Below are positions 1-20,523 of a DNA stretch of 20,798 nucleotides, in pieces (positions within the stretch are counted from its first letter, which is position 1; each line of letters starts with the position of its first letter). Where the stretch lies: the IMG/VR virus record IMGVR_UViG_3300045107_000498, positions 1-20,798 of that record; one strand, given 5' to 3'. The translations under genes were made by a program, and so were the position numbers. The notes under the pieces are model-generated. The model did no database searches. It was not told the DNA's origin and saw only the letters and a program-made list of their open reading frames with translations. The DNA is from a virus.

Positions 1-651
1 GTTGCGCTGACGCTGCTTACTATCGCGGCTGCACTCCGGCCTATTTCCTCACGCCCAGTTTCCTTCCTGCTAGACCCAATAATCTTGGAGTTCTGCTTAG
101 GCATGGCGATCGCGCTGGCGCATCGCGAGGGTGCACATTTGCCGCGTCTCCCAGCGATTATGTTGGCATTCGCCGCGGCGCTCACGTTTGTGCTCTCCGC
201 GATGTGGTCCGACACCGTCGCTTGGCGTACTGCTGTGTGGGGATTACCTGCCGCGATGCTCCTCGCTATCGTGACCCTGTGCACATCAGGAAAAAAGCAT
301 GAGCAGCCCTCAAGGCTGGTTCGCGCGTTTGAGATTTTAGGTGACGCGTCGTACTCGCTCTATCTATTGCATTGGATCGTGCTTCTCGGGATGGCACGGC
401 TCATTCCACACGTCTTTGATCCACCTTCTGCGCCGTGGATTTGCGTTGCGCTGTTGCTCGTTGCGCCAATCGCGACCGCGATCCTCTGTTATTTCGGATT
501 TGAGCGCCCTATCACCCGTTCTCTACAGTCGCGTCTTGCGATCTTGCTTGCGGCATCGAATGCCGGGGTCCAGGACCGCCAGGAAGTTACGGCGCGCCGA
601 AGTGACTTGGCGGTCGGTCCCGCCCTCGACGGGTCAGAGCGAAAGGCATGA
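1..651 (+). CDS. Acyltransferase family 3 membrane protein, C-terminal part (5' end outside window)
   Basis: The reading frame is open from base 1 and ends with TGA at 649-651, so the gene begins upstream of the window. The visible part has four hydrophobic segments. It carries two hallmarks of acyltransferase-3 (OafA/YrhL-like) proteins: a membrane segment reading LEFCLGMAIAL and, later, GDASYSLYLLHWIVLLG before a last helix and a short polar tail. Such proteins are inner-membrane enzymes that move acetyl or other acyl groups onto exopolysaccharide, O-antigen or lipid-linked sugars. The catalytic N-terminal part is not visible, so the acceptor cannot be named. The DNA looks less GC-rich than the phage genes that follow. 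The gene converges on the minus-strand phage module, so it may be the host flank or a lysogenic-conversion gene. Family assignment is firm; the role is inference. Confidence 0.85.
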   Translation, partial: VALTLLTIAAALRPISSRPVSFLLDPIILEFCLGMAIALAHREGAHLPRLPAIMLAFAAALTFVLSAMWSDTVAWRTAVWGLPAAMLLAIVTLCTSGKKHEQPSRLVRAFEILGDASYSLYLLHWIVLLGMARLIPHVFDPPSAPWICVALLLVAPIATAILCYFGFERPITRSLQSRLAILLAASNAGVQDRQEVTARRSDLAVGPALDGSERKA

Positions 652-769: not shown

Positions 770-1780
770 CTAGTATCGAATGCAGATCAGCGCCACCGCA
801 GAATGTGGGCGTGTCTCACCCCCCGAGCTATTGTTGACAATGACCGAGGTCGAGGCGCTTAACGAGGCGCTGGACCCGGCATGCGCGTGGTTGCCGATTC
901 CAGTCGACGTTGCAGTAATGCCAGTCGTCGCATTGCTGATCGTGCTGTTCAGAATCAGATTGCTCGGCCCGCCTGATCCCCCATCGCCGCCCCCCGCGGT
1001 CCACTTCACGACATTCGCGCTCGTGCCGCCGACAGCATGCGTATGACTTGGGTCGTTAATGAAGATGCTCGGTGTCCAGCCACCGTCTCCGACGATCGAC
1101 AGAGATACACTACCACTCGTACTCGCGCTTGCCGTATGGTTATGCGGCTTCACGTCGTCGGTCTGCGTCTGGCCTACGCTCAACGCCCCGCCGGCGGCGC
1201 GCAGGTAGCGGTTGTTGGTCACCAGGTCCGGCACATTGAACGTGGTCGCGCCGTTGCCGGGACCCCAGGTGGTGCCGATGGCGGCGAAGAGGTCGGGGTT
1301 GGCGGCGCGGGAGATGGCGCGGCCGTCGCAGGGGTAGTAGCCGGGCGGCGCGGTGGTGGTGGCGAAGAACTTGATCTCGCCGACCTCGGCGCGATCGTCG
1401 CGATAGAGATTGCCGGCGCCGTCGCAATAGAGCCGCTTCTGCGTCGCCTGCGGGATCGCGATCGCGCCGCCGGTGGCGGTCTTCAGCAGCAGGGCGAAGG
1501 CGCCCGCGAGATTGTTGAAGACGAGCAGCTGCTTGCTCAGGTTCGGCAGGATGATGGTCTGGTCCGCTGTCAGCGTGCCCTGCAGGCTGATCGCGCCGTG
1601 CTGGATCGGCGCGGCCGAGAGATCGAGCGTGCCGCCGGTCACCGTGTAGCTGGTGCGCCCCGCGATCGCGTTCTCGAGCGGCACGAACACGTCGCTGTTG
1701 AGCAGGTCGCCCCAGGTGTTGGAATTGCCGCCGGTCTGCTGCAGGCGCAGATTGAGCAACGTCGAAAAGCTGTCGGCCAT
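770..1780 (-). CDS. Phage tail-collar fibre protein
   Basis: This 336-residue protein is a tail fibre or collar protein, expected at the virion tail tip for receptor contact. Residues 1-35 (FSTLLNLRLQQTGGNSNTWG) are a typical fibre N-terminus. Residues about 133-195 form a phage tail-collar domain, recognisable from GEIKFF, APPGYYPCDGR, a short helix ending in FAAIGTTWGPG, then TTFNVPDL and RYLRA. After it come a Gly/Ser/Thr-rich stretch and three H-x-H sites (HNH, HTH, HAH), which in T4-type fibres can coordinate metal in a trimeric needle. The end, ETRPHSAVALICIRY, is the usual collar-protein closing strand. It is the last gene of the minus-strand module. An AAGG lies about 10 bases before the ATG. 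The distal third looks less GC-rich than the proximal part, as expected for a swapped receptor-binding tip. Confidence 0.88.
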   Translation of the reverse strand: MADSFSTLLNLRLQQTGGNSNTWGDLLNSDVFVPLENAIAGRTSYTVTGGTLDLSAAPIQHGAISLQGTLTADQTIILPNLSKQLLVFNNLAGAFALLLKTATGGAIAIPQATQKRLYCDGAGNLYRDDRAEVGEIKFFATTTAPPGYYPCDGRAISRAANPDLFAAIGTTWGPGNGATTFNVPDLVTNNRYLRAAGGALSVGQTQTDDVKPHNHTASASTSGSVSLSIVGDGGWTPSIFINDPSHTHAVGGTSANVVKWTAGGGDGGSGGPSNLILNSTISNATTGITATSTGIGNHAHAGSSASLSASTSVIVNNSSGGETRPHSAVALICIRY

Positions 1781-1814: not shown

Positions 1815-2435
1815 TCAGCCCACATGGTTCTCGATCGCGAGCCCGCGATACGACAGATCGGACTCGGCATTGGTCTTCTGAATGAGCGTCGCGAGCTTCT
1901 GCAATTCGAGCTGCTGACGCGTGTCGTTGTTGCGGAACGCGTGCGCGCCCGCGAGGCAGGCGGTGCGCAGCAGATGCGGATAGCGCGCGGTGAGGAAATT
2001 CGTGCCGCTCGTCGCGAGCGGCGTCCATCGCGCGAAGTACAAGAGGCGCAGCGTGGCGGCGCCGTCATATTGCGTCTCGAACTGCAGCGCCTCGTCGAAG
2101 ATCGCGTAGCTCGTGGCCACGCCGGCGGCGAGCACGCCGGCCTCGTAGCGCCGCAGCCGCTCGAGATCCGCCTCGCCGCGCAGGCTGAGCGTCAGGGCGT
2201 TGGTGGTGTCGGTCAGCGCGATCGGATCGAGGAAGCCCGCCGGCAGCGCCTTTGCGCTCTCGCCGGCGGCGAGCGCGAGCGTCGCCGAGACGCGCATCTC
2301 GCGCACCCGCAAGGTCTGCGCAATCAGAGCCTCGGCCTCCTCGACGATCTGCGCGACGTCGAGGAGGTTGTGGTTCACCCATGACCTGATCGATCCGGCG
2401 GTCGCCTTGTCGGCGATCAGCGTGGCGTAGTCCAC
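1815..2435 (-). CDS. Putative head-tail adaptor / connector protein
   Basis: This 206-residue protein begins at GTG 2435, four bases after the preceding stop, with a GAGG just in front. No ATG lies nearby. It is mostly helical. Near residues 145-170 it has a stretch reading RYPHLLRTACLAGAHAFRNND, followed by a long C-terminal helix. That pattern of an aromatic-Pro-x-Leu helix, an Asp turn and a closing helix is seen in phage adaptor proteins (SU10-adaptor type) that sit under the portal. Position fits: it follows the capsid genes and precedes a tail fibre. I assign it from overall pattern and context, not from a catalytic motif; another small structural protein remains possible. Confidence 0.5.
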   Translation of the reverse strand: MDYATLIADKATAGSIRSWVNHNLLDVAQIVEEAEALIAQTLRVREMRVSATLALAAGESAKALPAGFLDPIALTDTTNALTLSLRGEADLERLRRYEAGVLAAGVATSYAIFDEALQFETQYDGAATLRLLYFARWTPLATSGTNFLTARYPHLLRTACLAGAHAFRNNDTRQQLELQKLATLIQKTNAESDLSYRGLAIENHVG

Positions 2436-4107: not shown

Positions 4108-4274
4108 TGCGCCCTCGCCCCGCCTGCGGGGAGAGGGCCGCGTCGACCGCTCAACGCGCTCGCTCCGGTGAGGGGGACTCTCGGCAAGCGCCGCCTGGGA
4201 GAGTCCCCCTCACCCAACCGCACGTGTTGATCCTGCGGTGCCGCCCTCTCCCCGCAAGCGGGGCGAGGGCGCAA
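4108..4274. repeat. ~166-bp nested-hairpin element, copy 1
   Basis: The ends are near-perfect inverted repeats (TTGCGCCCTCGCCCCGC and its complement). Just inside are GGGGAGAGGGC and its partner, and in the centre lies a second inverted repeat, GGTGAGGGGGACTCT with AGAGTCCCCCTCACC. A near-identical design recurs at 15511-15676. The element contains no gene and lies in the gap between the major capsid gene and its downstream neighbour. It looks like a small non-autonomous mobile or palindromic element of the host genome. If transcribed it would fold into a strong branched stem and could lower expression of distal genes relative to the capsid gene. Confidence 0.88.
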
Positions 4275-4313: not shown

Positions 4314-5306
4314 TTACGTGGCGCTGTCCCACATCACGATGCGGGCGTCGGCGGCGGTGTCGTGGATGATGCCGAAGCCGGTGAGCGCGTACCACGCCAT
4401 CGCGCGCGAGCGGCCGAAGTCCTGCGGGATCGCGGCGCGGATCTCCTCCGGCACCACGATCGCCTCCATCACGGTGTCGCGGCCGAAGAAGAACGCCCAG
4501 GACGAGAGGCCGTTGGCCCAGGCCTGCGCGGTGCCGCTCCACGGATCATAGGTGGTGGCGTTGGCGGCGCCGCCCTTCGGGATCTGGTTCTGCTCGATGA
4601 AGCGCGTCCCCTCGTAGCGGCCGATCTCGCCGTTGAACACCTGGCTGATGCCGGTCTCGGTGTACTGCACCACCGACTCGAGCTGGTTGCGGAACGCGCG
4701 GAAGGTCGTGACGTGCGAGATGCAGCCGTAGTCGTCGCTCTGGAACGCCGGGACGTTGCGCTCCTTCATGGTGTCGACGATCGCCTTCACGTGGCCGGTG
4801 CCGAGCGCGAGATTGTTCGTGGTCGAGCACACGCCGTTGGTGTCGAGCGTGATCGCGCTCGCATTGTTGCCGCCGGTCGGCGCGGCGCGCAGCCTGGTGT
4901 TCTTGAACTGCAGGAACGCCTCGATGTCGAAGCACTTGCGCGCGTCGTCCTTGAGCATCTTGTCGATCCAGGCGACCACGTCCTGCTTGGCGAGCAGGTC
5001 GAGCTTGCCCGAGTAGGGCACGCTGTTGCCGAACTCGACGATCTGCAGCGAGCGCTGCGCGAGCGTGCCTTGGGTCTGCGGGATGGGCGCGGTCTCGCTG
5101 AGGCGGCGGCCCTGCGTCGCCACGTTGGAGCCGACGTTCCAGCGGAAGAAGTCGCCTGCGTGGAGGCCCTTCTCGGTGGCGTCGTCGCCGTCGGCGAGCT
5201 GGCGGAATTTCGTCGCCGGCTGCAGGCTCATGCGGAAGGTGTCGCTGAGCTCGTCCGAGTAGAGGTAGCCGCCATCGCTGGAGACTGACCAGAGTTGTCC
5301 GGGCAT
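4314..5306 (-). CDS. Major capsid protein, N4-gp56 type
   Basis: This 330-residue protein starts at ATG 5306, with AAGGAG nine bases ahead; a longer upstream frame exists but is unlikely. It fits the N4-gp56 family of major capsid proteins. The pattern includes an early basic and polar arm with ATQGRRLSE, then SLQIVEFGNSVPYSGKLDLL, the helix WIDKMLKDDARKCFDIEAFL, a central SHVTTFRAFRNQLESVV, and the family-typical NGEIGRYEGTRFIEQNQI near residue 235. The C-terminal third has AWAFFFGRD-like and RAMAWYALTGFG segments. It would assemble as hexamers and pentamers of the icosahedral head. It lies directly downstream of the scaffold candidate, the usual order. The family call is from recognised pattern. 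Confidence 0.85.
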   Translation of the reverse strand: MPGQLWSVSSDGGYLYSDELSDTFRMSLQPATKFRQLADGDDATEKGLHAGDFFRWNVGSNVATQGRRLSETAPIPQTQGTLAQRSLQIVEFGNSVPYSGKLDLLAKQDVVAWIDKMLKDDARKCFDIEAFLQFKNTRLRAAPTGGNNASAITLDTNGVCSTTNNLALGTGHVKAIVDTMKERNVPAFQSDDYGCISHVTTFRAFRNQLESVVQYTETGISQVFNGEIGRYEGTRFIEQNQIPKGGAANATTYDPWSGTAQAWANGLSSWAFFFGRDTVMEAIVVPEEIRAAIPQDFGRSRAMAWYALTGFGIIHDTAADARIVMWDSAT

Positions 5307-5361
5307 GGGGGGTGCACTCCTTGTATGTGTGTGGGGGCGTGCGCGTGGCTGCTGGCGCAAG

Positions 5362-5459
5362 CTCCGCTCACCCCCGCGAAAGCGGGGGTCCAGTCCTTTG
5401 ACCCGAAGCGCGGTCGGATCGGGTGCCCTGGATGCCCGCTTGCGCGGGCATGAGCGGAG
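5362..5459. repeat. ~98-bp GCGGG-type palindromic element, copy 1
   Basis: The element is bounded by perfect 9-base inverted ends (CTCCGCTCA and TGAGCGGAG). Each end carries its own hairpin: CCCCCGCGAAAGCGGGGG on the left and GCCCGCTTGCGCGGGC on the right. It sits in the gap between the scaffold and capsid genes. Related elements lie at 10241-10347 and 17482-17585. This is a REP-like host repeat with no coding content. Confidence 0.88.
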
Positions 5460-6631: not shown

Positions 6632-6673
6632 GGTGTCAGCTTCCTTGCATCGGTGTGTCGCAACACATTCCGC

Positions 6674-6780
6674 CCTCATCCTGAGGAGCCGCCGGAGGCG
6701 GCGTCTCGAAGGATGGCGGCGCGTTCGGAACGTGCGGCCATCCTTCGAGACGCTCGCTTCGCTCGCTCCTCAGGATGAGG
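6674..6780. repeat. ~105-bp double-hairpin REP element, copy 1
   Basis: The perfect inverted ends are CCTCATCCTGAGG and CCTCAGGATGAGG. The inner pair is GTCTCGAAGGATGGC with GCCATCCTTCGAGAC. Each half has a variable mini-hairpin tip: CCGCCGGAGGCGG on the left and GCTCGCTTCGCTCGC on the right. The element fills the gap between the 135-residue gene and the scaffold gene. Full copies recur at 13050 and 15278, and a half copy at 19277. No coding content. Confidence 0.92.
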
Positions 6781-6793
6781 CCGGAGGTCGGTG

Positions 6794-10060: not shown

Positions 10061-12544
10061 TCAAACCACGAGATCGCCGCGCGGCGGCTCGGGCTGCGAC
10101 GTGCTGTTCGCCGCGACCTCCGTCACGCCGCTGATGCGGCCGTCGGGGCCGCGCTGCACGGTGAACTGGCGCTGGCGCGGCATGCGGAGCAGTTCGATAA
10201 GTTGCGCGAGCGGATTCTCATCTTCTTCCGCTTGTCCCCCTCGCCCGTCGAAGACGGGCGCGAACGCCCTTGAGGAAAGCGGGGACCCAGTTCTTGGGTC
10301 CGGAGCACCTGGCCCCTGGACCCCCGCTTCCGCGGGGGTGAGCGGAGATTGGATGTCGGTCTGTGCCTCGTCGGCTCCTCCCGCTTCGCGCAGCGCGAGC
10401 CCGTGCGCGTGCCCGAGCTCGGTGGCGCGCAGGTGGTGCAGCGCGTTGCGGTCGGCCTGCTCGGCGGCGAGGCGCTTGCCGCCGAGGTCGGCCCGGGCGG
10501 CGGACGCCATCGCGGCGATCAGCGCGGCGCTGCCCTGCTTCCTGCTCTTGTCGATGTCGGCGAGGATCTTCTGCGTCTGCAGCGCCTGCAGATTGCTCTG
10601 CGCGGCGGCGAGCGGGTTCGGCGCCGGCTGGCCTGCGTGGACGAAGCGCGTCGCGCCGTCGCGATAGCCCGCAAGGCTGAACACCTCGTCGGCGATCGCC
10701 TTCACGTCGATCTGCAGCGCGCCGCTCGCGAGCGCGGGATTGTCGCGGAACAGCGGGGCGACCAGCGCGAGCGCGCCGCCGAGCTTCTGCAGCTTCTGCG
10801 CCGGATCGGCATTGCCGATGCCGGCATCGACCGTGACGGTCACCTGCTGGCTCAGCAGCTCATCGTCGATGCGCGAGACGCCGAAGCGCTCGAGCAGGCC
10901 GGCGCGCGCGCCGCACAGCGCCAGCACGGTCGCGTCGCTCTCGTAATACTGGATGCACTTGATCAGCTGCGCGATGGTCGGCTCGACCCAGGTCTCGATC
11001 CAGACGCGCTGATCGAACTCGGTGACCGCATTGGCCGAGCCCGAGATGAGCTGCAGCCCGCCGACCGTCTCGCCGGTGAAGCGGCTCGCCTGCACGGTCG
11101 ACTGGTCGAAATTGCCCGACGAGGTGTCGAAGTCGTTGTTCAGCCGCTCCATGATGGCAAAAGCCGACGAGGAAATGTCCGGCGGCTTGTCCCAGGTGAC
11201 ATCGGAAGGATCCTCCACGAGAAACTGCGCGTTCGGCCCGAGGCGATTGAGTTGCGCGAGATCGACCTGCTTGCCGCGCACCACCTTCTTGATCGGCGAC
11301 ACCGCGAGCTTCGCGCTGTCCAGCATCAGGTTGGCGAAGTCGTTGATCTCGATCTGGCTCTGCTGCCAGCTCTCGACCGACGACATCGGAAACAGCCGGT
11401 GGCTCTCGAGATTGACCACGCCGAACGTATAGGGCCGCTCGCCGCCCTGCTCGGGATAGACCTCGTGCACGGGCTTCGGATCGGTCAGATAGGCGCGGTC
11501 CTGCGCGGCCCAGAACGTCATGTCGCGCCCGCCGACGCGCATGAACACCTCGTAGACCCACACGATCTCGAAGTCGCCGCGCCCGGTGTAGCGCGCGTCG
11601 AGGCGGTTGGTGCCCTCGCGGCTCGCCCGCGTGGCGCGCGCCGCGTCGTCGGTGCCGGACGCCATGCCGCGCAGCTCGGCGGCGGAGAGCGCGTGCCAGG
11701 GATGCAGCGGATGCTCCTGCATCTGCAGCACCTCGTCGATGGTCATCGGCACCTTGGCGATGAACACCGCGGCGCTCTGGATCGGGTTGAGCCAGTGCGC
11801 GGCCGGATCGATCTCGATGTTCTCGAGCGGAAACAGCATGCAGTCCGGCCGGTCGATGAAGGGCGCGTAGACGTCGCGCATCAGCGGCGCGCCGGTCTCC
11901 TCGTCGCGCAGCGGCGTGCCCTCCGCATCGGTCTCGGGCTCGGCGCCCATGTGGCGCAGCTCGAGCTTCCAGTACTGCTTCGACACGCAAGCCGAGGTGA
12001 TCATCGCGTCCTGATGCGCGCCGCCGCAGACGCGAAACCACGGGATCGCCGCCATGCCGCTGGTGCGGTCGGTGCGATAATTGAAGAGCGCCTGGATCAG
12101 CTTGGCGTTCGCCTGCTGCAGCGGATTGCTCTCGTCGCCGGCGGTGCATTTCACCGCGTCCTTGGTGGCGAACAGCGCCGCCACCGCGGCGGCATCGGCC
12201 TTGCGCACCGCGGTGCGGGTCTTCGGGCGGAACAGCTTCGAGCGGTTGCGGTATTCCGTGTGCCAGTATTTCGAGCCGTTGAAATGCTTGTTGCGGAAGG
12301 CGCGGTAGCTGGCGTCGATCGGCGCGGCGAGCTGCTCTTGGTAATACTGCGTCAGGCGCGGCCGCGCGTCGCGCAACAGCCGCAGGTAGTCATAGTCGTG
12401 CGCGGCGGCGTCGCCCGCCGCGAACGCCGTGGCCTGCGCGCGCGCCATCAGCGCGTTCACGCGCGTCTTCGACGAAGAACGCCCGAGCGTGTCGAAGCCG
12501 TCCTCCATCGGCGATGTGCGCTGCGGATCGGCGGTGTCACGCAT
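10061..12544 (-). CDS. Portal protein (N4/P22-like large portal)
   Basis: This 827-residue protein starts at ATG 12544, overlapping the upstream stop as TAATG; the longer frame upstream is a shadow. The length and content fit a large podovirus portal, the twelve-subunit ring through which DNA enters the head. Recognisable stretches are an N-terminal helical region, FRNKHFNGSKYWHTEYRNRS near residue 90, then charged blocks around DNPL-like helices. Later come VESWQQSQIEINDFANLML and SSGNFDQSTVQASRFTGETVGGLQLI, typical of the wing-to-stem region, followed by TEFDQRVWIETWVEPTIAQLI. The tail has LDAL-like Ala/Gln helices. Residues about 732-768 come from an inserted palindromic element (SPLTPAEAGVQGPG and following), so the C-terminal region is unusual. 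Neighbours are a small coupled gene upstream and virion genes downstream. Confidence 0.85.
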   Translation of the reverse strand: MRDTADPQRTSPMEDGFDTLGRSSSKTRVNALMARAQATAFAAGDAAAHDYDYLRLLRDARPRLTQYYQEQLAAPIDASYRAFRNKHFNGSKYWHTEYRNRSKLFRPKTRTAVRKADAAAVAALFATKDAVKCTAGDESNPLQQANAKLIQALFNYRTDRTSGMAAIPWFRVCGGAHQDAMITSACVSKQYWKLELRHMGAEPETDAEGTPLRDEETGAPLMRDVYAPFIDRPDCMLFPLENIEIDPAAHWLNPIQSAAVFIAKVPMTIDEVLQMQEHPLHPWHALSAAELRGMASGTDDAARATRASREGTNRLDARYTGRGDFEIVWVYEVFMRVGGRDMTFWAAQDRAYLTDPKPVHEVYPEQGGERPYTFGVVNLESHRLFPMSSVESWQQSQIEINDFANLMLDSAKLAVSPIKKVVRGKQVDLAQLNRLGPNAQFLVEDPSDVTWDKPPDISSSAFAIMERLNNDFDTSSGNFDQSTVQASRFTGETVGGLQLISGSANAVTEFDQRVWIETWVEPTIAQLIKCIQYYESDATVLALCGARAGLLERFGVSRIDDELLSQQVTVTVDAGIGNADPAQKLQKLGGALALVAPLFRDNPALASGALQIDVKAIADEVFSLAGYRDGATRFVHAGQPAPNPLAAAQSNLQALQTQKILADIDKSRKQGSAALIAAMASAARADLGGKRLAAEQADRNALHHLRATELGHAHGLALREAGGADEAQTDIQSPLTPAEAGVQGPGAPDPRTGSPLSSRAFAPVFDGRGGQAEEDENPLAQLIELLRMPRQRQFTVQRGPDGRISGVTEVAANSTSQPEPPRGDLVV
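10241..10347. repeat. ~107-bp GCGGG-type palindromic element, copy 2, inside the portal gene
   Basis: The right end reads CCCCCGCTTCCGCGGGGGTG and then AGCGGAG; the left end has the hairpin CGCCCGTCGAAGACGGGCG. The arrangement is the reverse orientation of the copy at 17482-17585 and shares the GCGGAG end of the copy at 5362. It is read in frame within the portal, adding about 36 residues that include TPAEAGVQGPG, the familiar translation of this repeat type. Confidence 0.85.
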
Positions 12545-13002
12545 TACGAAAGTCGTCCCAGTCCGCCGGGCGGCGCGCGGCGCGTCGCGAACGGCCCCTG
12601 CTGTTGCCGCACGGCCTTGACGAGCGAGAAGTCGATGGTCGAGCGCGGCAGGCCGTAGCGCTCGAGGATCTCGCCGCCGGCGCGCATCACGTCGTGCGGC
12701 CGAAGGCCGGCAAGATGCAGCACATAGGGATATTGCGGGCTCATCAGGCAGGAGAGCCACACCTTCGCAATCCCGGCGCGGCGGCTCACCCACACGTTCC
12801 AGTCATGGCCGTGATAATGCGCATGCAGCAGGCGGCCGATCGCGCGCGCGGTGCGGTCGTCGAAGGCGGCGTGCGGGTCATGTGTGTGGCCATCACGCGA
12901 GTCCTCGCTGCGCTCATGCGTGGTGAAGACGAGCGTGTGCGCGTTGCGCTGCGGGTCGAGCGTGTCGGCGTGGCGGATGCGTGTGTGCATGGTGATGTTC
13001 AA
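12544..13002 (-). CDS. Hypothetical phage protein coupled to portal (152 aa)
   Basis: I know no function for this protein. The start is uncertain: TTG 13002 has GGAG four bases upstream, while ATG 12990 lies 16 bases from it. The N-terminal ~45 residues are hydrophilic and His/Asp/Thr-rich. The conserved-looking core from about residue 50 contains ARAIGRLLHAHYHGHDWNVW, then AGIAKVWLSCLMSPQYPYVL and a final helix (DVMRAGGEILERYGL). No membrane or enzyme motif is clear, although the His-x-His-x-x-His-like cluster (HAHYHGHDW) could hold a metal. Its TAA overlaps the portal ATG as TAATG, so it is probably made in step with the portal. Confidence 0.72.
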   Translation of the reverse strand: MNITMHTRIRHADTLDPQRNAHTLVFTTHERSEDSRDGHTHDPHAAFDDRTARAIGRLLHAHYHGHDWNVWVSRRAGIAKVWLSCLMSPQYPYVLHLAGLRPHDVMRAGGEILERYGLPRSTIDFSLVKAVRQQQGPFATRRAPPGGLGRLS

Positions 13003-13049
13003 TTCACTCCGTCGTCATCCCGGACGCGCGGCCGCGCCGCGCATTCAGT

Positions 13050-13156
13050 CCTCATCCTGAGGAGCGAGCGCAGCGAGCGTCTCGAAGGATGGCGGCGAGC
13101 TCCGAGTGTGCGGCCATCCTTCGAGACGCGCCCTTCGGGCGCTCCTCAGGATGAGG
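13050..13156. repeat. ~105-bp double-hairpin REP element, copy 2
   Basis: The ends and inner pair are the same as in the 6674 copy (CCTCATCCTGAGG, then GTCTCGAAGGATGGC). Tips differ: left GCGAGCGCAGCGAGCG, right GCGCCCTTCGGGCGC, both still palindromic. It fills the gap between the LamG-nucleoside hydrolase gene and the portal-coupled gene. Confidence 0.92.
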
Positions 13157-13171
13157 TCGGAGTTGCCGGCG

Positions 13172-14764
13172 CTAACTCGTCAGCTCGAGGCTCGTCGCGA
13201 TCGCGCCGCAGATCAGGCCCATCTGGCTTGGATCGTTGGCGAGCGTCACCTGGCGGTGCAGGTTTGGCGCGGCGCCGGCCGCAAACGTGCTGACCCCGGT
13301 CGTGGCGTTCACCGTCACCTTGCCGGTCGGGCCGGCGACGAAATGATTGGTGAGGCCGCGCCCCGCGATCAGCACCGCAATCAGATCCCAGGCCGGACGA
13401 TTGTCGACGCCGAACAGCACCTGCGCGTATTTGATCGGATCGAGGTTCGGATCCGCGCCGGCGGCCGGGTTCTGCGCGCCGCGCGCCGACCAGGCGCTCG
13501 CCGCGCCGGTCTCGACCGGCGACTGCAGGATCGGCATGCCGGCATTGGCGAACACGTAAGCCGCCGAGGCCGGGTCGTTGGCGAAATTGTACTCGACCGT
13601 CACGCCGTCGGCGGCGCCGCCCATGATCACGATCTGGCTGATCTTCGCGGCGGCGAGCGCGCCTTGCGTCTGCAGCAGCGCCGCGAGATTCTGCAGGAAG
13701 CCGAGCGCGCAATAGGTCACGTTCGCGTTCGCCTGCAGCGCCGCCGTCAGCACGCTCGCCACTGCGGGATAGTCCGCGCGCGTCGCCGCCGGATTGAGGC
13801 CGAAGCGCGCCGCCACCTGCTGCACATAGAGCGAGGTCGTGGTGCGCGCGCCCTGCTCGTCCTTGTAGGCGCCGATCGGCACGCCGGTGAGGCCGTATTT
13901 GCGCAGCACCGCCTCGGCGCACGGCGCCGAATAGACATTGCTCGCGCTGGTGACGACCGCCACCAGGTTGATGTAGCCGGCCTGATGCAGCAGCGCCGCG
14001 ATCGCGAGCGCCGCGAGGTCGTCGTAGTCCTGGCACAGATCCGTGTCGATGATGACGTTCCGAGCCGAGACCGCGGCGAGCGCGCGAAACTTGCGCGCGA
14101 CCTCGTAGGCCGTGAGCGCGCGGCTCCAGCGGCTCACGCCGGGAAACTTGAGATCGCCGAGGAAGCCCTCGCCGTCCGTGGCATTGAGGCCGAAACGCAG
14201 CTCGCCCGCATGGGCGGTCGGCGGCGCCGCGCCGTATTGCAGGTCGCACACGCCGTTCACATAGAGCCGCGCGATCTGGCCGGCCGCATCGTAGGTGCCG
14301 ACGAGATGCGTGTCGGCGCCCGCGCTCAGGATCGTGGCGGCGTCGTTGCCAGTGGTCTGGTTGACGCGCCAGTGCACGACATTGCTGGCGTTGCCGGACT
14401 TGTAGAGGCCGGTCCAGTTGGCGCCGCTGCGGTCGTATTCGACGATCGCCTCCCAGGCGGCGAAGCCGCTCGGATTGACCAGCGCGTCATAGGAGAACGA
14501 CGCGCCGGCGAGCGAGGCGTCGGGCGCGATCACGACCTTCTCGGCGCCGGCAAAATGCAGCGGCAGCGCGGCGAGGCCGGTGGGCGTGCCGTTGCGGCCG
14601 CCGACGATGTCCTTGATGCCGCCGGCCGCGAACGTCGCGTTCGGCGCCTTCAGCGGCCACCAGTGCGTCAGCCCGGCCGCCACCGGCGGCGTCAGGCCGG
14701 CCTTGCGCGCGAGCGATCCGCCACGGCCGAACCCGCGGCCGAGACGTCCGATCCACGAGGGCAT
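13172..14764 (-). CDS. LamG-like lectin domain fused to nucleoside hydrolase domain
   Basis: This 530-residue protein starts at ATG 14764, one base after the upstream TGA. Residues about 30-228 look like a LamG/concanavalin-like fold: LTHWWPL, DIVGGRNGTPTG, GTYDAAGQIARLYVNG and a closing SRWSRALTAYEVA, the usual last strand and helix. Residues about 235-490 match the inosine-uridine nucleoside hydrolase fold. D240-T-D242 then D246-Y-D248-D249 is the calcium-binding aspartate cluster of the DxDxxxDxDD subgroup. Further matches are ALGFLQNLAALL (canonical ALGPLTNLA), MGG at 381-383, E391-x-N393-xxx-D397-P and AWD at 458-460 (canonical HD, here Trp for His). So most metal and ribose ligands are kept, while the Thr and His positions differ. 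Such enzymes cleave the N-glycosidic bond of nucleosides. There is no signal peptide. It is encoded among virion genes. Whether it is active and virion-borne is inference. Confidence 0.82.
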   Translation of the reverse strand: MPSWIGRLGRGFGRGGSLARKAGLTPPVAAGLTHWWPLKAPNATFAAGGIKDIVGGRNGTPTGLAALPLHFAGAEKVVIAPDASLAGASFSYDALVNPSGFAAWEAIVEYDRSGANWTGLYKSGNASNVVHWRVNQTTGNDAATILSAGADTHLVGTYDAAGQIARLYVNGVCDLQYGAAPPTAHAGELRFGLNATDGEGFLGDLKFPGVSRWSRALTAYEVARKFRALAAVSARNVIIDTDLCQDYDDLAALAIAALLHQAGYINLVAVVTSASNVYSAPCAEAVLRKYGLTGVPIGAYKDEQGARTTTSLYVQQVAARFGLNPAATRADYPAVASVLTAALQANANVTYCALGFLQNLAALLQTQGALAAAKISQIVIMGGAADGVTVEYNFANDPASAAYVFANAGMPILQSPVETGAASAWSARGAQNPAAGADPNLDPIKYAQVLFGVDNRPAWDLIAVLIAGRGLTNHFVAGPTGKVTVNATTGVSTFAAGAAPNLHRQVTLANDPSQMGLICGAIATSLELTS

Positions 14765-14765
14765 G

Positions 14766-15068
14766 TCAGGTGTTCGCCACGACCGAGATGACGCGGGAGC
14801 CCCGCACGCCGAGATATTCCAACGTGTCGGCCGGCAGCCGTTTGTCGTTCGTCGTCGCGACCGGCGCCGTCCCATAGGCGAGCGAGCAGACCGCGTCGGC
14901 GCACAGCCGCACGATCGTGGTGCGCGCGTCGAGCGTCTTCTCGGCATGGCCGCTGGTGAAGTCCGCGACCTGGGTCTGGATGAACGAGTCCTCGTCGACC
15001 AGCTGCGCCACGCCCGCGCCCTCGACGCGCTTGAGCGCAAAATATTCGCTGATGTAAAGCTTCGCCAC
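14766..15068 (-). CDS. Small hypothetical phage protein (100 aa)
   Basis: The start is GTG 15068, three bases after the upstream TGA, with GAGG about nine bases ahead. The 100 residues begin MAKLYISEYFALKR and continue with a mixed strand-and-helix pattern (QLVDEDSFIQTQVADFT, RTTIVRLCADAVCSLAYG, ending VRGSRVISVVANT). This resembles small beta-sandwich virion proteins but gives no family match I can name. One base separates it from the LamG-nucleoside hydrolase gene, so the two are probably translated together. It could be a partner or baseplate-like adaptor for that protein; this is speculation from arrangement. Confidence 0.7.
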   Translation of the reverse strand: MAKLYISEYFALKRVEGAGVAQLVDEDSFIQTQVADFTSGHAEKTLDARTTIVRLCADAVCSLAYGTAPVATTNDKRLPADTLEYLGVRGSRVISVVANT

Positions 15069-15071
15069 GTG

Positions 15072-15254
15072 TCACGCCTCGTCGTAGGGAAAACGCCGGC
15101 CCGGCGCGTCCTCGAACACGCGGCCATTCGCGAATTCGTAATAGGTCTCGCGCCCCGTCATCGCCGGCCGCCACTCCGGATCGACCGCGCGGATCAGCTG
15201 CTCCTGCGTGCGCGTCCGCGTGCGCGGCGGATGATACGGATACGGGACGGGCAT
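15072..15254 (-). CDS. Small hypothetical protein (60 aa)
   Basis: The start is ATG 15254, chosen because AAGGAAGG lies about six bases upstream; the open frame further 5' runs into a REP element. The 60 residues are Pro/Arg/Tyr-rich: MPVPYPYHPPRTRTRTQEQL, then RAVDPEWRPAM, then ETYYEFANGRVFEDAPG. No known domain is present. It heads the four-gene run that continues with the 100-residue gene and the LamG-nucleoside hydrolase, each separated by at most three bases. Confidence 0.7.
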   Translation of the reverse strand: MPVPYPYHPPRTRTRTQEQLIRAVDPEWRPAMTGRETYYEFANGRVFEDAPGRRFPYDEA

Positions 15255-15277
15255 GCGTTTCCTTCCTTCATTCCGAC

Positions 15278-15382
15278 CCTCATCCTGAGGAGCGAGCGCA
15301 GCGAGCGTCTCGAAGGATGGCGGCATGTTCGGAGCGCGCGGCCATCCTTCGAGACGGCGCTTCGCGCCTCCTCAGGATGAGG
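15278..15382. repeat. ~105-bp double-hairpin REP element, copy 3
   Basis: Perfect inverted ends and inner pair are as in the 6674 and 13050 copies. The left tip is GCGAGCGCAGCGAGCG, as in copy 2; the right tip is a different palindrome, GGCGCTTCGCGCC. The change in tip sequence preserves pairing. Confidence 0.92.
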
Positions 15383-15510
15383 GCCGGTCATGCAGCCACC
15401 CGCGTCAGCGGCGATCATCGCTGCCTTGCTGCGCCGGACTTATGGCAAGCCTGCCGGTGCGCGGGTGTTCGGTGATCCCAAGAACAGAATGCGAGCGCGA
15501 TGCGCATTGG

Positions 15511-15676
15511 TGCGCCCTCGCCCCGCCTGCGGGGAGAGGGCTGCGTAAACCTCTCAACAAGCTGGGTCGGGTGAGGGGGACTCTCCGCGCGCGCGCTCGT
15601 GGAGAGTCCCCCTCACCCAATTGCACGTGTTGATCCTGCGGTGTGGCCCTCTCCCCGTAAGCGGGGCGAGGGCGCA
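15511..15676. repeat. ~166-bp nested-hairpin element, copy 2
   Basis: The outer ends are TGCGCCCTCGCCCCGC and its complement, and the inner pair is GGTGAGGGGGACTCTC with GAGAGTCCCCCTCACC. The loop between the inner arms differs from copy 1 (4108-4274), while the right half keeps CACGTGTTGATCCTGCGGTG in both. It is in the same orientation as copy 1. Confidence 0.88.
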
Positions 15677-15695: not shown

Positions 15696-17477
15696 TCACG
15701 AATCCGCGAAGCTCTTTGGCTCGAGCTCGCCGGCCTCGTAGACGATCGGGCGCGTCGCGCCCATGTCGTAGATGCGCGAGACGGCGTCGATCAGGTCGTC
15801 CTTGGGCGCGAGCGGGAAGAACAGCGCCTCGGCGATCAGCTCGCGCGTCAGGTCGTAGACGGCGTTGTCCTCGTCGCGGCGGCGGATCGCGCGCACCACG
15901 CGATGGCCCTCGCCCGCCGCGATCAGCGTGCGCTGCTCCTTCGGCAGGTCGCGCATCGGCCGATAGACGATCTGGCCGGCCTGCTGCGTGTCATCCGCTG
16001 CCTCCTCGCCGACCACGCGCCACAGCGCGGCGCCGACCGGAACGGCGTTCGTCGCATCCCGCAGGCCGAACTCCGCATGATGCACCACGCCCGGCAGATA
16101 GAACCGGCTCTCGCGCATGTCGGGCTCGAGCCGCTCGATGCGGTCGGCCTTGGAATGGCGGCCCTGGCGCGGCGTGTTCAGCTCGTGCAGCGTGAAGACG
16201 TAATCCTCGCGCCGCATGTACTCGGCGAACACCTCGCAGTCGTTCTGCTGGCCGTAGATCTCGTAGCCCACCTTGACGAGCTGCACGCCGCGCTCGGCGC
16301 TCCACTTGGCGTGCAGCGCCTTGAGGCAGCGCCAGCGCTCCGAGAGCGGCATGCGATGGCGGTAGCCGTCGAGCAGATACATGTTGCCCTGCGGGTCGAG
16401 TCCGACCACCGCGATCGCGGTGCGATCCGAGCGCTCGGTCGCGCCCTTCGAGGGGTCGCACATGATGTACACGTTGAGCCGCGCGGGCCGCACCAGATAG
16501 GGCCGGCACCATGCGGCGCGAAACGTCTGCGTCGAATCGGCGAGCGGATTGAGCAGCATCTGCGCCGCCACCGTTTTGGTCTGCAGCCGGCACACCTCGG
16601 CCCAGCGCGCCGGGCTCATGTAGACCGGCGTGCCCTTGCGGGTGCCGTCGTCGGTCGCGGGATGGCGCCGCACTTTCAAGAGCTCGTTCTCGATGATCCA
16701 GCCGTATGTGTCGGCGAACGAGTAGCGCGTGCCGAAATGCCATTTGCGCGTCGCCCGCGCCTTTCCGAGATTGTCGGAGAGCTGGTACTTCTCGGTCACT
16801 TTCGCGACGATCGTGTCGTTCGCCACCAGGCGATCGGTGACGAGGTCGTCATAGTCGATCAGGTCGTAGTGCTTGCCGATCGGCATGCCGTCGATCAGGC
16901 CATGCGCCTCGACGGTCGCCTCCTTCGGGTTGCCGGTGCGCCGCACCACGATGCCGTCGGCGCGCGACCAGCGCGGCGCCTCGCGGCGCGGGTTGGCATA
17001 GAGCACATCCGGATAGAGCGCCTTCAGCTCCTCGTTCGTCTCCAGCTCGTGCTGGATCTGCGCCAGAAACGGTTTCGCGATCTTGTTGGTGGCCGACAGG
17101 ATGCACACCGTGATCTCGGGGTTGCAGGCGATCTCCTGAATGATGCCGGCGTGCGTTCCGATGCTCGACTTGAAATGATAGCGTGCCCAGAGATCGAGAT
17201 AGCCGTCGGGCGCGGCCTCGACCTCGCGGCAGCGCTGATAGAGCCACGGATGCAGCGCGGAGCCGTCGCCGGAGTGGCGCCTCAGCACCGCGGTGAGCAG
17301 GAAGTAGCGGTCGTTGCAGCCGAGCAGCGCGCGGCCGGCGCGATCGAGCGCCGGAAGTGTCGCGCGATACCAGCGCAGGCCGTCCTTGTAGTCGAGATAG
17401 GGCAGCTCATCGATGATGAAGCGCGCGAGTTTTTCGTTGCGTGTCGTGAGATAGCGTTCCGCGCGCAGGACTCTCAT
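15696..17477 (-). CDS. Terminase large subunit (DNA packaging ATPase/nuclease)
   Basis: From ATG 17477 this gives 593 residues; the frame stays open to 17609, but that extension is the repeat at 17482-17585. The ATP-powered motor pumps DNA into the capsid through the portal. Residues 98-105 (ARYHFKSS) occupy the Walker A position in the R-x-H-x-K-S form used by this terminase group. LIDYDD at 206-211 is the Walker B region. AAQMLLNPL near 304 is a family hallmark. The nuclease half has D341 and D351 in CDPSKGATERSDRTAI, a Gly/Asn strand NMYLLDGYRHR, and a final acidic KDDLIDAV near 559-566. These agree with the RNase H-type headful nuclease. Upstream genes include a possible small subunit. 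Start strength is weak (GAGCGG). Confidence 0.92.
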   Translation of the reverse strand: MRVLRAERYLTTRNEKLARFIIDELPYLDYKDGLRWYRATLPALDRAGRALLGCNDRYFLLTAVLRRHSGDGSALHPWLYQRCREVEAAPDGYLDLWARYHFKSSIGTHAGIIQEIACNPEITVCILSATNKIAKPFLAQIQHELETNEELKALYPDVLYANPRREAPRWSRADGIVVRRTGNPKEATVEAHGLIDGMPIGKHYDLIDYDDLVTDRLVANDTIVAKVTEKYQLSDNLGKARATRKWHFGTRYSFADTYGWIIENELLKVRRHPATDDGTRKGTPVYMSPARWAEVCRLQTKTVAAQMLLNPLADSTQTFRAAWCRPYLVRPARLNVYIMCDPSKGATERSDRTAIAVVGLDPQGNMYLLDGYRHRMPLSERWRCLKALHAKWSAERGVQLVKVGYEIYGQQNDCEVFAEYMRREDYVFTLHELNTPRQGRHSKADRIERLEPDMRESRFYLPGVVHHAEFGLRDATNAVPVGAALWRVVGEEAADDTQQAGQIVYRPMRDLPKEQRTLIAAGEGHRVVRAIRRRDEDNAVYDLTRELIAEALFFPLAPKDDLIDAVSRIYDMGATRPIVYEAGELEPKSFADS

Positions 17478-17481
17478 ATTC

Positions 17482-17585
17482 CGCTCATTCCCGCGAAAGC
17501 GGGAATCCAGGGGCCAGGGACGCCGCCGAAGGACTGGGTCCCGGCTTTCCGAACGGGCGTCCCGCCCGTCCTCGACGGGCGACCC
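17482..17585. repeat. ~104-bp GCGGG-type palindromic element, copy 3
   Basis: The left end is CCGCTCATTCCCGCGAAAGC followed by GGGAATCC, a hairpin. The right end is GCCCGTCCTCGACGGGC. It fills the gap between the small-terminase candidate and the large terminase, abutting the terminase ATG. The orientation is opposite to the copy in the portal gene. The terminase frame is open through it, so translation from an upstream start would add repeat-encoded residues. Confidence 0.85.
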
Positions 17586-17605
17586 CGACGAGCGGCAAAT
17601 TGACG

Positions 17606-17914
17606 TCAATCCTCCAATTCGCGCCCGTAGGCGTCGAGCGCGGGCCGCAGCGGATCCTCGCGCGCGCCCGCCTGGCCGCTCAGCGCGGCGAGCTTGCCGA
17701 GGCCGTCGGCGGCGGTGTTGATGGTCTCGCCGAGCGCGGCGAGCGCCTTGGCGACGACGTCGGGGCGCGCGAGGGTCAATTCGGTGTTGTCGGTGATCGT
17801 CGCGGCGATGCGCTCGGCCGAAAGGATCAGCGCGCGCAGGCTGCGCGCGGCGATCGCGGCATTGTCGTCGCGCGGCGGCGTGGATGGTCTGGCGCGCGGG
17901 CCGCGCGGAGCCAC
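17606..17914 (-). CDS. Small phage protein, possible small terminase subunit (102 aa)
   Basis: GTG 17914 is chosen because GGAGAG lies about ten bases upstream and the frame before it is a shadow of the preceding gene. The 102-residue product has an Arg/Pro-rich start, then two long helices (NAAIAARSLRALILSAERIAATI, then VVAKALAALGETINTAADGLGKLAAL) and an acidic end. Its position directly before the large terminase and its small helical nature fit a small subunit that recognises packaging sites, but no helix-turn-helix is evident. An alternative is an unrelated early virion protein. Confidence 0.6.
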   Translation of the reverse strand: MAPRGPRARPSTPPRDDNAAIAARSLRALILSAERIAATITDNTELTLARPDVVAKALAALGETINTAADGLGKLAALSGQAGAREDPLRPALDAYGRELED

Positions 17915-18875: not shown

Positions 18876-19387
18876 GGATGTGTCTCGGTTGCGCGGGAAG
18901 AGAGAAGCGCGGGCCATGCCGACGGGCCTGGGAGGGAGGCCGGCACGCCCGCGCTGCGGTCGCGGGGACGGCGACGGATCGGCGCCGCAAACGCGGCGAC
19001 GGATCCGGGTGATTCTGCTGATGACGATGTGCGGTGCGTGTGAGCGACGCGGCGACGACGTGGCGAGAAGCGCGACGCGTCAGATACGAAAACCGCATCC
19101 TAGAATTTGACGATGCCAGCGCGCCGGCGCGCGCGCAAGGCGCATGTGCCCGAAAATCGGTTCCATTGCGCGAATTATTTTTGCAGCGGCTCCGCGCGAT
19201 CTTTCGGCTGCGGCGCAAACCGGCGCGGCAAAAACTCTCCGACCTCGGCTTCGTAGCGCGGATGGAGTGAAACGAAATCCTTCGAGACGCTCGCTGCGCT
19301 CGCTCCTCAAGATGAGGTCCCGGAATTGCGGCGTCAGCGCCGAGATGCGCGTCAGCGCCGGAATGCACATCAGCGCCGAGATGCGCA
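18876..19387. other. Gene-poor stretch upstream of the phage gene run
   Basis: No supported gene is seen in these 512 bases. Contents are a GC-rich part, a local AT-richer patch near 19160-19190, a half REP at 19277-19317 and most of an 18-bp tandem array from 19327. Since the run of minus-strand genes starts at 18875, a promoter could lie here, but I cannot point to convincing -35 and -10 boxes. Confidence 0.5.
19277..19317. repeat. Half copy of the ~105-bp REP element
   Basis: It matches the right half of the full copies: ATCCTTCGAGACGC, the tip GCTCGCTGCGCTCGC, then CCTCAAGATGAGG, with one base changed in the terminal repeat. The left half is absent, suggesting that single half-units can exist alone or that the partner was lost. 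Confidence 0.85.
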
Positions 19388-19398
19388 TCAGCGCCGGA
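19327..19398. repeat. 18-bp tandem array 1 (four units)
   Basis: Four copies of ATGCGCGTCAGCGCCGGA, with A/G and G/A alternations, run at 18-base spacing. The 3' end and TGA stop of the 50-residue membrane-protein gene lie inside the last unit. The array may have grown from the gene's own end. Confidence 0.88.
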
Positions 19399-19540
19399 AT
19401 GCCATCACGACCGGGATGAAGATCAGCAGGATAATGGCGAGATTGACCACGTCGCCGAGGAGAAAGCCGACGCGCGTCAGCGGGTCCTTCGGATAGGGGA
19501 TCAGCCAGTCGGGTCGTTCCATCGGGGTGTTCACGTCCAT
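19388..19540 (-). CDS. Small single-helix membrane protein (50 aa)
   Basis: ATG 19540 is preceded by GGGAG about eight bases upstream. The 50 residues begin with a polar N-terminus, MDVNTPMERPDWLIPYPKDP. One membrane helix follows at about 23-47 (GFLLGDVVNLAIILLIFIPV and two to four more), and the end is basic, FRR. Such a short, one-helix protein could be a holin-like or host membrane peptide; nothing specific decides it. It stands alone between two 18-bp tandem arrays, between the nucleotidyltransferase pair and the phage genes. The frame upstream of the ATG is repeat DNA. Confidence 0.65.
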   Translation of the reverse strand: MDVNTPMERPDWLIPYPKDPLTRVGFLLGDVVNLAIILLIFIPVVMAFRR

Positions 19541-19556
19541 TGGCGCGCTCCCATGG

Positions 19557-19661
19557 TCTCGTGAAGTTACAGCGTGTCGTGACGTTACAGCGTGTCGTGA
19601 CGTTATAGCGTGTCGTGGCTTTGTAGCATGTCGTGACGTTTGTAGCGTGTCGCGACGCGAG
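19557..19661. repeat. 18-bp tandem array 2 (about five units)
   Basis: Units of CGTGTCGTGACGTTACAG recur at 18-19 base spacing with decay towards the right (a GGCTTTG variant, then one 19-base unit). The array ends about 17 bases before the ATG of the membrane-protein gene, in the place of a promoter or operator. It might bind a regulator or simply be a slipped repeat. Confidence 0.88.
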
Positions 19662-19701: not shown

Positions 19702-20523
19702 TTATGGGTGAGCGGGGCTCCATCCGACCGCGTTGAATTCGGATGGCGCCGGCATCACCTCTGGCTCCTCGGTTGCTTTCCGCAGCATGGCATTGTCCTT
19801 CCTGCCATCGATCAGCTCGATCGGAACGCCTTGCCGGCTGGTTGCCAGAACACCAAGCAGGTCGGGAGAGGCCGCCATCACGTAGGCCTCTGCTTGCGCG
19901 ATGAAGCGGAGAGCCTCTTCCCGAATGAACGTCGCGGTCCAGTCGGAAGGAAGCCCCTTCACGGCGGCGAAGTCCTCGGCAGGAATTGACAGGATGTGCC
20001 GGCGGATCTCGTCGATCGTCCGCTTGGGAGAAAAGTTTGGCGGCTTCCCGGCCGCCGCGAGCACCAAGGGACCGATTGGGCAGTAGTCGCGGCCGATCGC
20101 GACGATATCGGCGATGTCCCGCGCTTTCGAGCGTCCCGACGCGGCCAGGACCTTATTGACAGCCAGGTCGGCCTGGTGAAGTCGGGCGCCCCACTCCTCG
20201 TCTCTCACCAGCGGAAAGAACCGGCGCTTGGTCTCCGAAAGCCATTGGATGATGGTCGAGGAATTGTCGTCGGATACGGTCGCCTCGACGCATCCATAAA
20301 CCACGACATCCTTCTTTGTCTTGAAGCCGGATTGATCGAGAACGGCCAGGTCCGCCATGGCTGCACCCGTGACCTCCTCGTCGGTGTCGTGAAAGATGTC
20401 GATGTCGTCAGAACGTCTTTTCCAGTTCTTGTTCAACATCAGACCGCCCGCCAGGTAGCTCGTCTCCGAGCGATTCCTGGCGAGGCATCGCAGGATGCTG
20501 CTCTGAAGCTGGGTGAGGGCCAT
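19702..20523 (-). CDS. AbiEii-like nucleotidyltransferase (possible toxin)
   Basis: This 273-residue soluble protein starts at ATG 20523, one base after the upstream TAA. Residues 24-46 (LAGGLMLNKNWKRRSDDIDI and following) give the nucleotidyltransferase signature: G26-G27, then R37-S-D-D-I-D42. D119 with K124, then R131, R135-D136 and D139 (DLAVNKVLAASGRSKARDIAD) match the second motif of the AbiEii/MenT family. These enzymes transfer nucleotides, for example to tRNA ends, and serve as toxins in type IV abortive-infection pairs. The remaining C-terminal part is helical without a clear match. The upstream gene takes the antitoxin position but does not look like AbiEi. DNA here looks less GC-rich than the phage genes. 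Family call is good; toxin role is inference. Confidence 0.75.
   Translation of the reverse strand: MALTQLQSSILRCLARNRSETSYLAGGLMLNKNWKRRSDDIDIFHDTDEEVTGAAMADLAVLDQSGFKTKKDVVVYGCVEATVSDDNSSTIIQWLSETKRRFFPLVRDEEWGARLHQADLAVNKVLAASGRSKARDIADIVAIGRDYCPIGPLVLAAAGKPPNFSPKRTIDEIRRHILSIPAEDFAAVKGLPSDWTATFIREEALRFIAQAEAYVMAASPDLLGVLATSRQGVPIELIDGRKDNAMLRKATEEPEVMPAPSEFNAVGWSPAHP

Follow-up and report, generated by a model that had tools for sequence, protein, structure and literature searches.

Nucleoside hydrolases (NHs) use Ca2+ and an acidic pocket to distort the ribofuranosyl group toward an oxocarbenium-like state. The metal ligands in this family are two motif aspartates, the main chain at a Thr position and a C-terminal aspartate. 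An NH-like fold also occurs in a polysaccharide-related protein, Sde182_NH-like (PF07632), which the protein described here did not match in a Pfam scan at E up to 0.1. For IU-NH, the rate gain comes mainly from distorting the ribosyl group, and NHs act fast on an O-riboside, 4-nitrophenyl riboside, whose leaving group needs no protonation (PMC8910321). HopQ1/XopQ-like proteins carry a DxxxDxDD motif, as described in PMC3608555 and PMC11685791. HopQ1 showed no nucleoside hydrolase activity, and ribose-containing substrates of another kind were proposed for it (PMC3608555); XopQ is reported to hydrolyse 2',3'-cAMP/cGMP, as stated in PMC11685791. Phage fibres bearing SGNH esterases, GH modules or depolymerases likewise join an enzyme to a sugar-binding or fibre module within the structural cluster. 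We found no description of the NH fold in virions in the literature or in INPHARED; the NHs reported in the described phages Seuss and TCUP2199 are listed among nucleotide metabolism genes and are a different thing.

The DNA analysed here, referred to as the window, is one entire IMG/VR record of 20,798 nucleotides (IMGVR_UViG_3300045107_000498), and one of its genes joins a LamG domain to an NH domain (Table 1). We propose, with confidence about evenly balanced, that the product is a fibre- or spike-type protein acting as a virion-borne, sugar-targeted Ca2+ furanosidase (probably a ribofuranosidase) on a host surface glycan, a reading drawn from sequence comparison. A sequence-only reading of the window had placed the fusion at the right coordinates, and the gene there is on the minus strand. 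Pfam-A matches Laminin_G_3 (residues 76-223; 47.8 bits against a curated cut-off of 27.6) and IU_nuc_hydro (PF01156; residues 237-421; E 2e-20; 74.1 bits against 34.2) to this single gene, and both scores lie so far above their cut-offs that neither match is chance. The gene has a GC content of about 69-70%, and the plus-strand frame over the same interval is a spurious antisense frame of this GC-rich gene.

Table 1. Coordinates in the window of the fusion gene, its parts, the surrounding phage genes and the palindromic repeats.
Feature	Coordinates	Strand	Basis or remark
LamG-NH fusion gene	13172..14764	(-)	530 aa; ORF translation; Pfam LamG_3 + IU_nuc_hydro; ATG at 14764, stop codon ends at 13172
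GRLGRGFGRGG stretch, residues 6-16	14717..14749	(-)	Resembles GRLGKFFGKAG, which is N-terminal in the L013 protein
LamG (ConA-like) domain, residues 76-223	14096..14539	(-)	Pfam PF13385 (Laminin_G_3), E 2.2e-12
NH-fold domain, residues 235-530	13175..14062	(-)	Pfam PF01156; AF2 model; Foldseek
Aspartate motif DTDLCQDYDD (D240-D249), DxDxxxDxDD form	14018..14047	(-)	Conserved in 28/28 rows
E391-x-N393, ribose-binding pair	13586..13594	(-)	E in 24/27, N in 26/27 rows
W459-D460: Trp at usual catalytic His position, Asp as last Ca2+ ligand	13385..13390	(-)	W in 23/27, D in 26/27 rows
84-aa gene, first in tight run	15072..15326	(-)	ORF list; no family match in Pfam or PHROGs
100-aa gene, coupled to fusion gene	14766..15068	(-)	Homologues in L013 and L103
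orf12544, 152-aa gene	12544..13002	(-)	Homologues immediately upstream of portal in most relatives
SU10-type portal protein (longest frame)	10061..12793	(-)	Pfam SU10_portal, E 2.2e-21
Terminase large subunit (longest frame)	15696..17609	(-)	phrog_38, E 3.8e-40
Major capsid protein (longest frame)	4314..5360	(-)	phrog_1357, E 4.6e-14
SU10-type adaptor protein	1815..2435	(-)	Pfam SU10_adaptor, E 2.6e-14
Tail collar-type fibre protein; second, conventional fibre	770..1780	(-)	Pfam Collar, E 4.4e-20; phrog_19618
Palindromic repeats, group 1	6659-6786, 13035-13162, 15263-15390, 19277-19317		
Palindromic repeats, group 2	4108-4273, 15511-15676		
Palindromic repeats, group 3	5363-5393, 10316-10351, 17480-17510		

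Structure prediction followed by a structural search, the check that the sequence-only reading had suggested, bore out the NH half. In the AlphaFold model most ten-residue blocks from residue 231 to 420 have a pLDDT of 86-98. When the NH model was searched against the PDB with Foldseek, each of the top 50 matches was a nucleoside hydrolase or, like XopQ, an NH-like protein, and E. coli RihA (3g5i) was matched with E 3.7e-13 and a target-normalised TM score of 0.73. Since two structure predictions gave the LamG half a pLDDT below 50, its assignment comes from the Pfam match only. A BFVD fold search returned no confident match, which is weak evidence of absence given that the query model was half disordered and the search lacked a positive control.

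The window protein shares with canonical RihA/B/C and IU-NH (PF01156) the fold, the aspartate cluster, the LG-x-L-x-N-L-A and MGG motifs, E-x-N and the C-terminal Ca2+-ligand aspartate. It differs in a motif two residues longer than the canonical DxDxxxDD, in W459 where the Rih enzymes have a general-acid His before the last aspartate, and in its LamG partner, phage structural context and separate clade; against the Rih-type NCBIfam equivalog it scores 36.4 bits, the cut-off being 382. With HopQ1/XopQ it shares the extended DxxxDxDD motif (D242-x3-D246-x-D248-D249), but it has no effector signal and has Trp where HopQ1 has Tyr383 before the last aspartate, scoring 30.6 bits against an equivalog cut-off of 500 (NCBIfam). 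All the residues named from the sequence alone stand where they had been placed, namely the cluster D240/D242/D246/D248/D249, ALGFLQNLA (residues 353-361), MGG (381-383), E391-x-N393 followed by D397-P398, and Q358 and W459 in place of the usual Thr and His. By alignment the Ca2+ ligands D242, D249 and D460 are present and position 358, a Gln, contributes through its main chain; the Ca2+ site (D242, D249, Q358 main chain, D460) and the ribose pocket (D248, E391, N393) are predicted to be intact.

The two substitutions had first been regarded as peculiarities of this protein, a view that comparison with its relatives overturns. In an alignment of 28 rows, 27 of which have a residue at E391, N393, W459 and D460, all five aspartates of DxDxxxDxDD are invariant, and the Thr position is occupied by T, S, K, A, R and others. 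Since the subfamily tolerates many residues at this position and keeps Trp459-Asp460, neither Gln358 nor Trp459 points to decay. In a tree of 98 NH domains, the clade with DxDxxxDxDD and Trp-Asp stands apart from canonical alphaproteobacterial NHs (support 98/96), and all phage copies fall in it together with cellular proteins of Bacteroidota, Planctomycetota, Verrucomicrobiota, Lentisphaerota and Bacillota. A prophage protein, L019, is the sister of the window copy (support 96/87), but fine placement is unsure because branches are long and the tree program warns of possible false joins. We found no description of an activity for the Trp-Asp subfamily.

The NH domain of this subfamily recurs in unrelated phage fibre-type proteins. 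Across 2.9 million viral contigs, a scan for the DNA motif DTD-x3-D-x-DD-xx-AL, with subsequent translation and profile search, matched 17 contigs and yielded four other phage proteins with this domain, each built differently. Peptides from L004, L005-L007, L010 and L017 were out of frame or chance matches and were dropped, and L011 and L016, which look like other stand-alone NH-like proteins, were set aside. The L113/L018 protein (903 aa), encoded straight after an Rcc01698-type tail hub, has the order DUF2793-NH-ArabFuran-catal (GH54-like), and INPHARED proteins annotated as tail fibres or minor tail proteins match its DUF2793 end. L013 (1439 aa) combines LamG, Ig-like and NH domains with the NCBIfam 'phage head spike fiber' domain (E 5.6e-17) and lies between the capsid and adaptor genes of an SU10-type genome. 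L019 (555 aa; NH-LamG), from a prophage of isolate genome 2738541331, is encoded last ahead of an endolysin-like gene that has GH19 and peptidoglycan-binding matches. The L002 gene, preceded by adaptor-like and nozzle-like genes, codes for a tail-fibre-like N-terminus and an NH domain that lies at the contig end. Domain order and anchor differ among the five phage proteins, the window's included, four of which pair the NH domain with a ConA-like or GH54-like module.

The design is therefore not unique. The search for the same fusion found none in INPHARED, and close relatives of the whole window protein were found neither there nor in the viral contigs; the NH domain itself occurs in the four differently built phage proteins and, in bacteria, also with sugar-binding and GH modules. 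tblastn against INPHARED (50,697 phages) returned no record, whether the query was a cellular member or the NH domain of L019, of L013 or of the window protein. Scans of IMG/VR with each of the other phage NHs as a single-protein query returned only the query itself, so every viral member is a singleton there at this sensitivity. In 397 genomes from the same order as Mesorhizobium only the NH domain matched, mostly in stand-alone NH-sized frames.

These pairings bear on whether the domain is an enzyme. We think it unlikely that the NH fold is a non-catalytic, Ca2+-dependent sugar- or receptor-binding module beside LamG, with the catalytic residues merely holding ligand and metal. The general-acid His is missing throughout the subfamily and ConA-like binding partners accompany four of the five phage proteins, as such a role would have it. 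Furthermore, in the L113 copy (L113:5060-5971) a Gly replaces the last metal-ligand aspartate, so that this copy may be non-catalytic or binding-only. Yet at an overall identity of only about 30-35%, L013, L019 and the window protein have all the other pocket residues in common, which points to selection on catalysis.

The cellular members of the subfamily look mostly secreted: by a crude hydrophobicity test, an N-terminal hydrophobic segment is present in 36 of 44 non-phage DxxxDxDD rows as against 2 of 49 other rows. Such Trp-Asp proteins of Bacteroidota, Planctomycetota and Verrucomicrobiota belong with the window's domain by tree and active site, and several are fused to sugar-binding or GH modules, as the window's is to LamG; they differ in being cellular and in mostly having these segments. 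A Lentisphaerae protein of 1155 aa (L028:5680-9144) fuses an NH-type domain to GH106, an alpha-L-rhamnosidase, and NH proteins of L022 and L032 have F5/8C, Big_2 and DUF1349 matches. Three NH-type genes lie with GH27, GH31 and LamG genes in a Bacteroidetes cluster (L043:4580-13187), one of whose NH proteins has, by eye, a LamG-like C-terminus; this cluster is a candidate glycan locus in which to look for the subfamily's substrate. Neighbours elsewhere include GH78 and GH106 (L038), SusD (L031), an apiosidase-like gene (L045) and a sulfatase (L044). Some neighbourhoods do not conform, such as L090, where the NH gene adjoins ClpB. As these neighbourhoods were picked by hand, the glycan-locus pattern is an association without a statistic.

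Since the cellular members mostly look secreted and several lie in glycan loci, the likely substrate is a furanoside of a surface glycan over free nucleosides or NAD. The sequence-only reading had proposed a virion-borne or lysis-stage enzyme, targeted by a sugar-binding domain, that acts on nucleosides, NAD-like or ribosylated ligands; comparison keeps the particle and the targeting, both of which are probable, and makes NAD less likely and free nucleosides unlikely as substrates. It had also speculated about counter-defence. A nucleosidase or nucleotide-cleaving enzyme, delivered by the virion or expressed early to blunt nucleotide- or NAD-based defence, could draw on a fold family that cleaves ribosides and whose related HopQ1 clan includes XopQ, with the activity noted above; the window protein scores weakly with the XopQ and RihC models. 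Sugar-binding partners and fibre-type contexts in unrelated phages, together with mostly secreted cellular relatives in glycan loci and the lack of any PADLOC match, speak against it, and we give this reading very little probability.

The fusion gene comes from a soil-type, podovirus-like (SU10-type) prophage, whose host we take to be Rhizobiales-like. The phage structural genes (terminase, SU10-type portal, major capsid protein, SU10-type adaptor and collar-type fibre) are all on the minus strand, and the fusion gene sits inside their cluster, between terminase and portal. The earlier description of its surroundings proved accurate: it is third in a tight run after two small genes, in which each stop is separated from the next start by just 3 nt (15072/15068) or 1 nt (14766/14764), and it precedes orf12544, the gene whose homologues accompany the portal. 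Homologues of the 100-aa gene lie directly upstream of the L013 LamG-NH gene and adjoin the portal in L103. Across nine related portal loci the terminase-portal slot is variable apart from small conserved genes. It can carry tail fibres, as in L105 (gp53-like C-terminus, Pfam) and, by appearance, L107, and also, by eye, non-virion cargo, namely glycosyltransferase-like genes (L103:3658-7048, L109:7112-8503), an epimerase-like gene in L103 and a ParA-like gene in L101; the glycosyltransferase- and epimerase-like genes possibly serve surface-glycan modification.

Scattered among the phage genes are palindromic repeats of three families, like those found between chromosomal genes, with one copy in the gap of about 170 nt between the fusion gene and orf12544. 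Because the region contains these host-type repeats the prophage looks old, which suggests a long-resident element. At the record edge, a frame at 85-651 (+) matches the C-terminal part of Acyl_transf_3 and is a host gene or an O-antigen-modifying gene. Beside the module, 19702-20523 (-) resembles an AbiEii-type nucleotidyltransferase weakly, at E 8e-4 and below the cut-off, and two short arrays of 18-nt tandem repeats (19556-19645 and 19334-19402) lie at one end of the record.

An old prophage with a slot open to such cargo could hold a moron, that is, a secreted or cytoplasmic enzyme that benefits the host and stays outside the particle. We consider this improbable: a signal peptide was not seen on the window protein, the gene is coupled by 1 nt to a small gene with a homologue ahead of the L013 LamG-NH gene as well, and other phage NH proteins carry fibre and spike domains. 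No virion-anchor or fibre domain was recognised in the window protein itself by Pfam, PHROGs or NCBIfam. Its N-terminal GRLGRGFGRGG stretch might just conceivably be a particle-anchoring or assembly peptide. When GRLG was scanned for as a pattern, to see whether it serves phages generally as an anchor, most of the 10 loci were chance matches and one short phage-contig frame (L137) begins MNFGRLGRVFGRLG, so that idea stays weak.

For the furanosidase that we favour, the sequence of events would be as follows. Carried as a fibre or spike of the SU10-type particle, the protein would dock through LamG on a host surface sugar, and the NH-fold domain would cut O-antigen, capsule or exopolysaccharide at a furanosidic bond, which is most likely beta-D-ribofuranosyl; cleavage would unmask or release a receptor, as SGNH esterase and GH modules do on other tail fibres. 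Its presence in the particle, its catalysis, its glycan substrate and the ribo-configuration are what we infer from the observed domains, residues and subfamily and from the recurrence of this subfamily's NH domain in unrelated phage fibre-type proteins and in secreted glycan-locus proteins. Loss of the general-acid His is compatible with hydrolysis of O-ribosides or O-furanosides because 4-nitrophenyl riboside needs no leaving-group protonation, and ribofuranose is present in alphaproteobacterial O-polysaccharides (PMC8537588, PMC4153317). Against this reading count the negative nucleoside hydrolase result for HopQ1, with its related DxxxDxDD element, the failure to recognise a virion-anchor domain in the window protein, the cargo genes in the variable slot of relatives and the Gly of the L113 copy. 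For the branch as a whole we suggest, more tentatively, that the DxDxxxDxDD/Trp-Asp proteins may be unrecognised Ca2+-dependent furanosidases by which glycan-degrading bacteria act on extracellular glycans, repeatedly captured as enzyme modules of phage fibres.

On our best reading, the novelty would lie in the NH fold as the enzyme of a glycan-active phage fibre, such fibres being already known with other enzyme folds. If this is true, a fold known mainly for nucleoside salvage doubles as a glycan-trimming tool, phage particles gain a type of entry enzyme for which we found no description, and bacterial glycan loci gain a missing furanosidase activity. It would also account for the failed nucleosidase assays of HopQ1-like NHs with a related aspartate motif. 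The phage and bacterial roles share one prediction, that Trp-Asp NHs would cleave O-furanosides, with beta-D-ribofuranosides as the first candidate.
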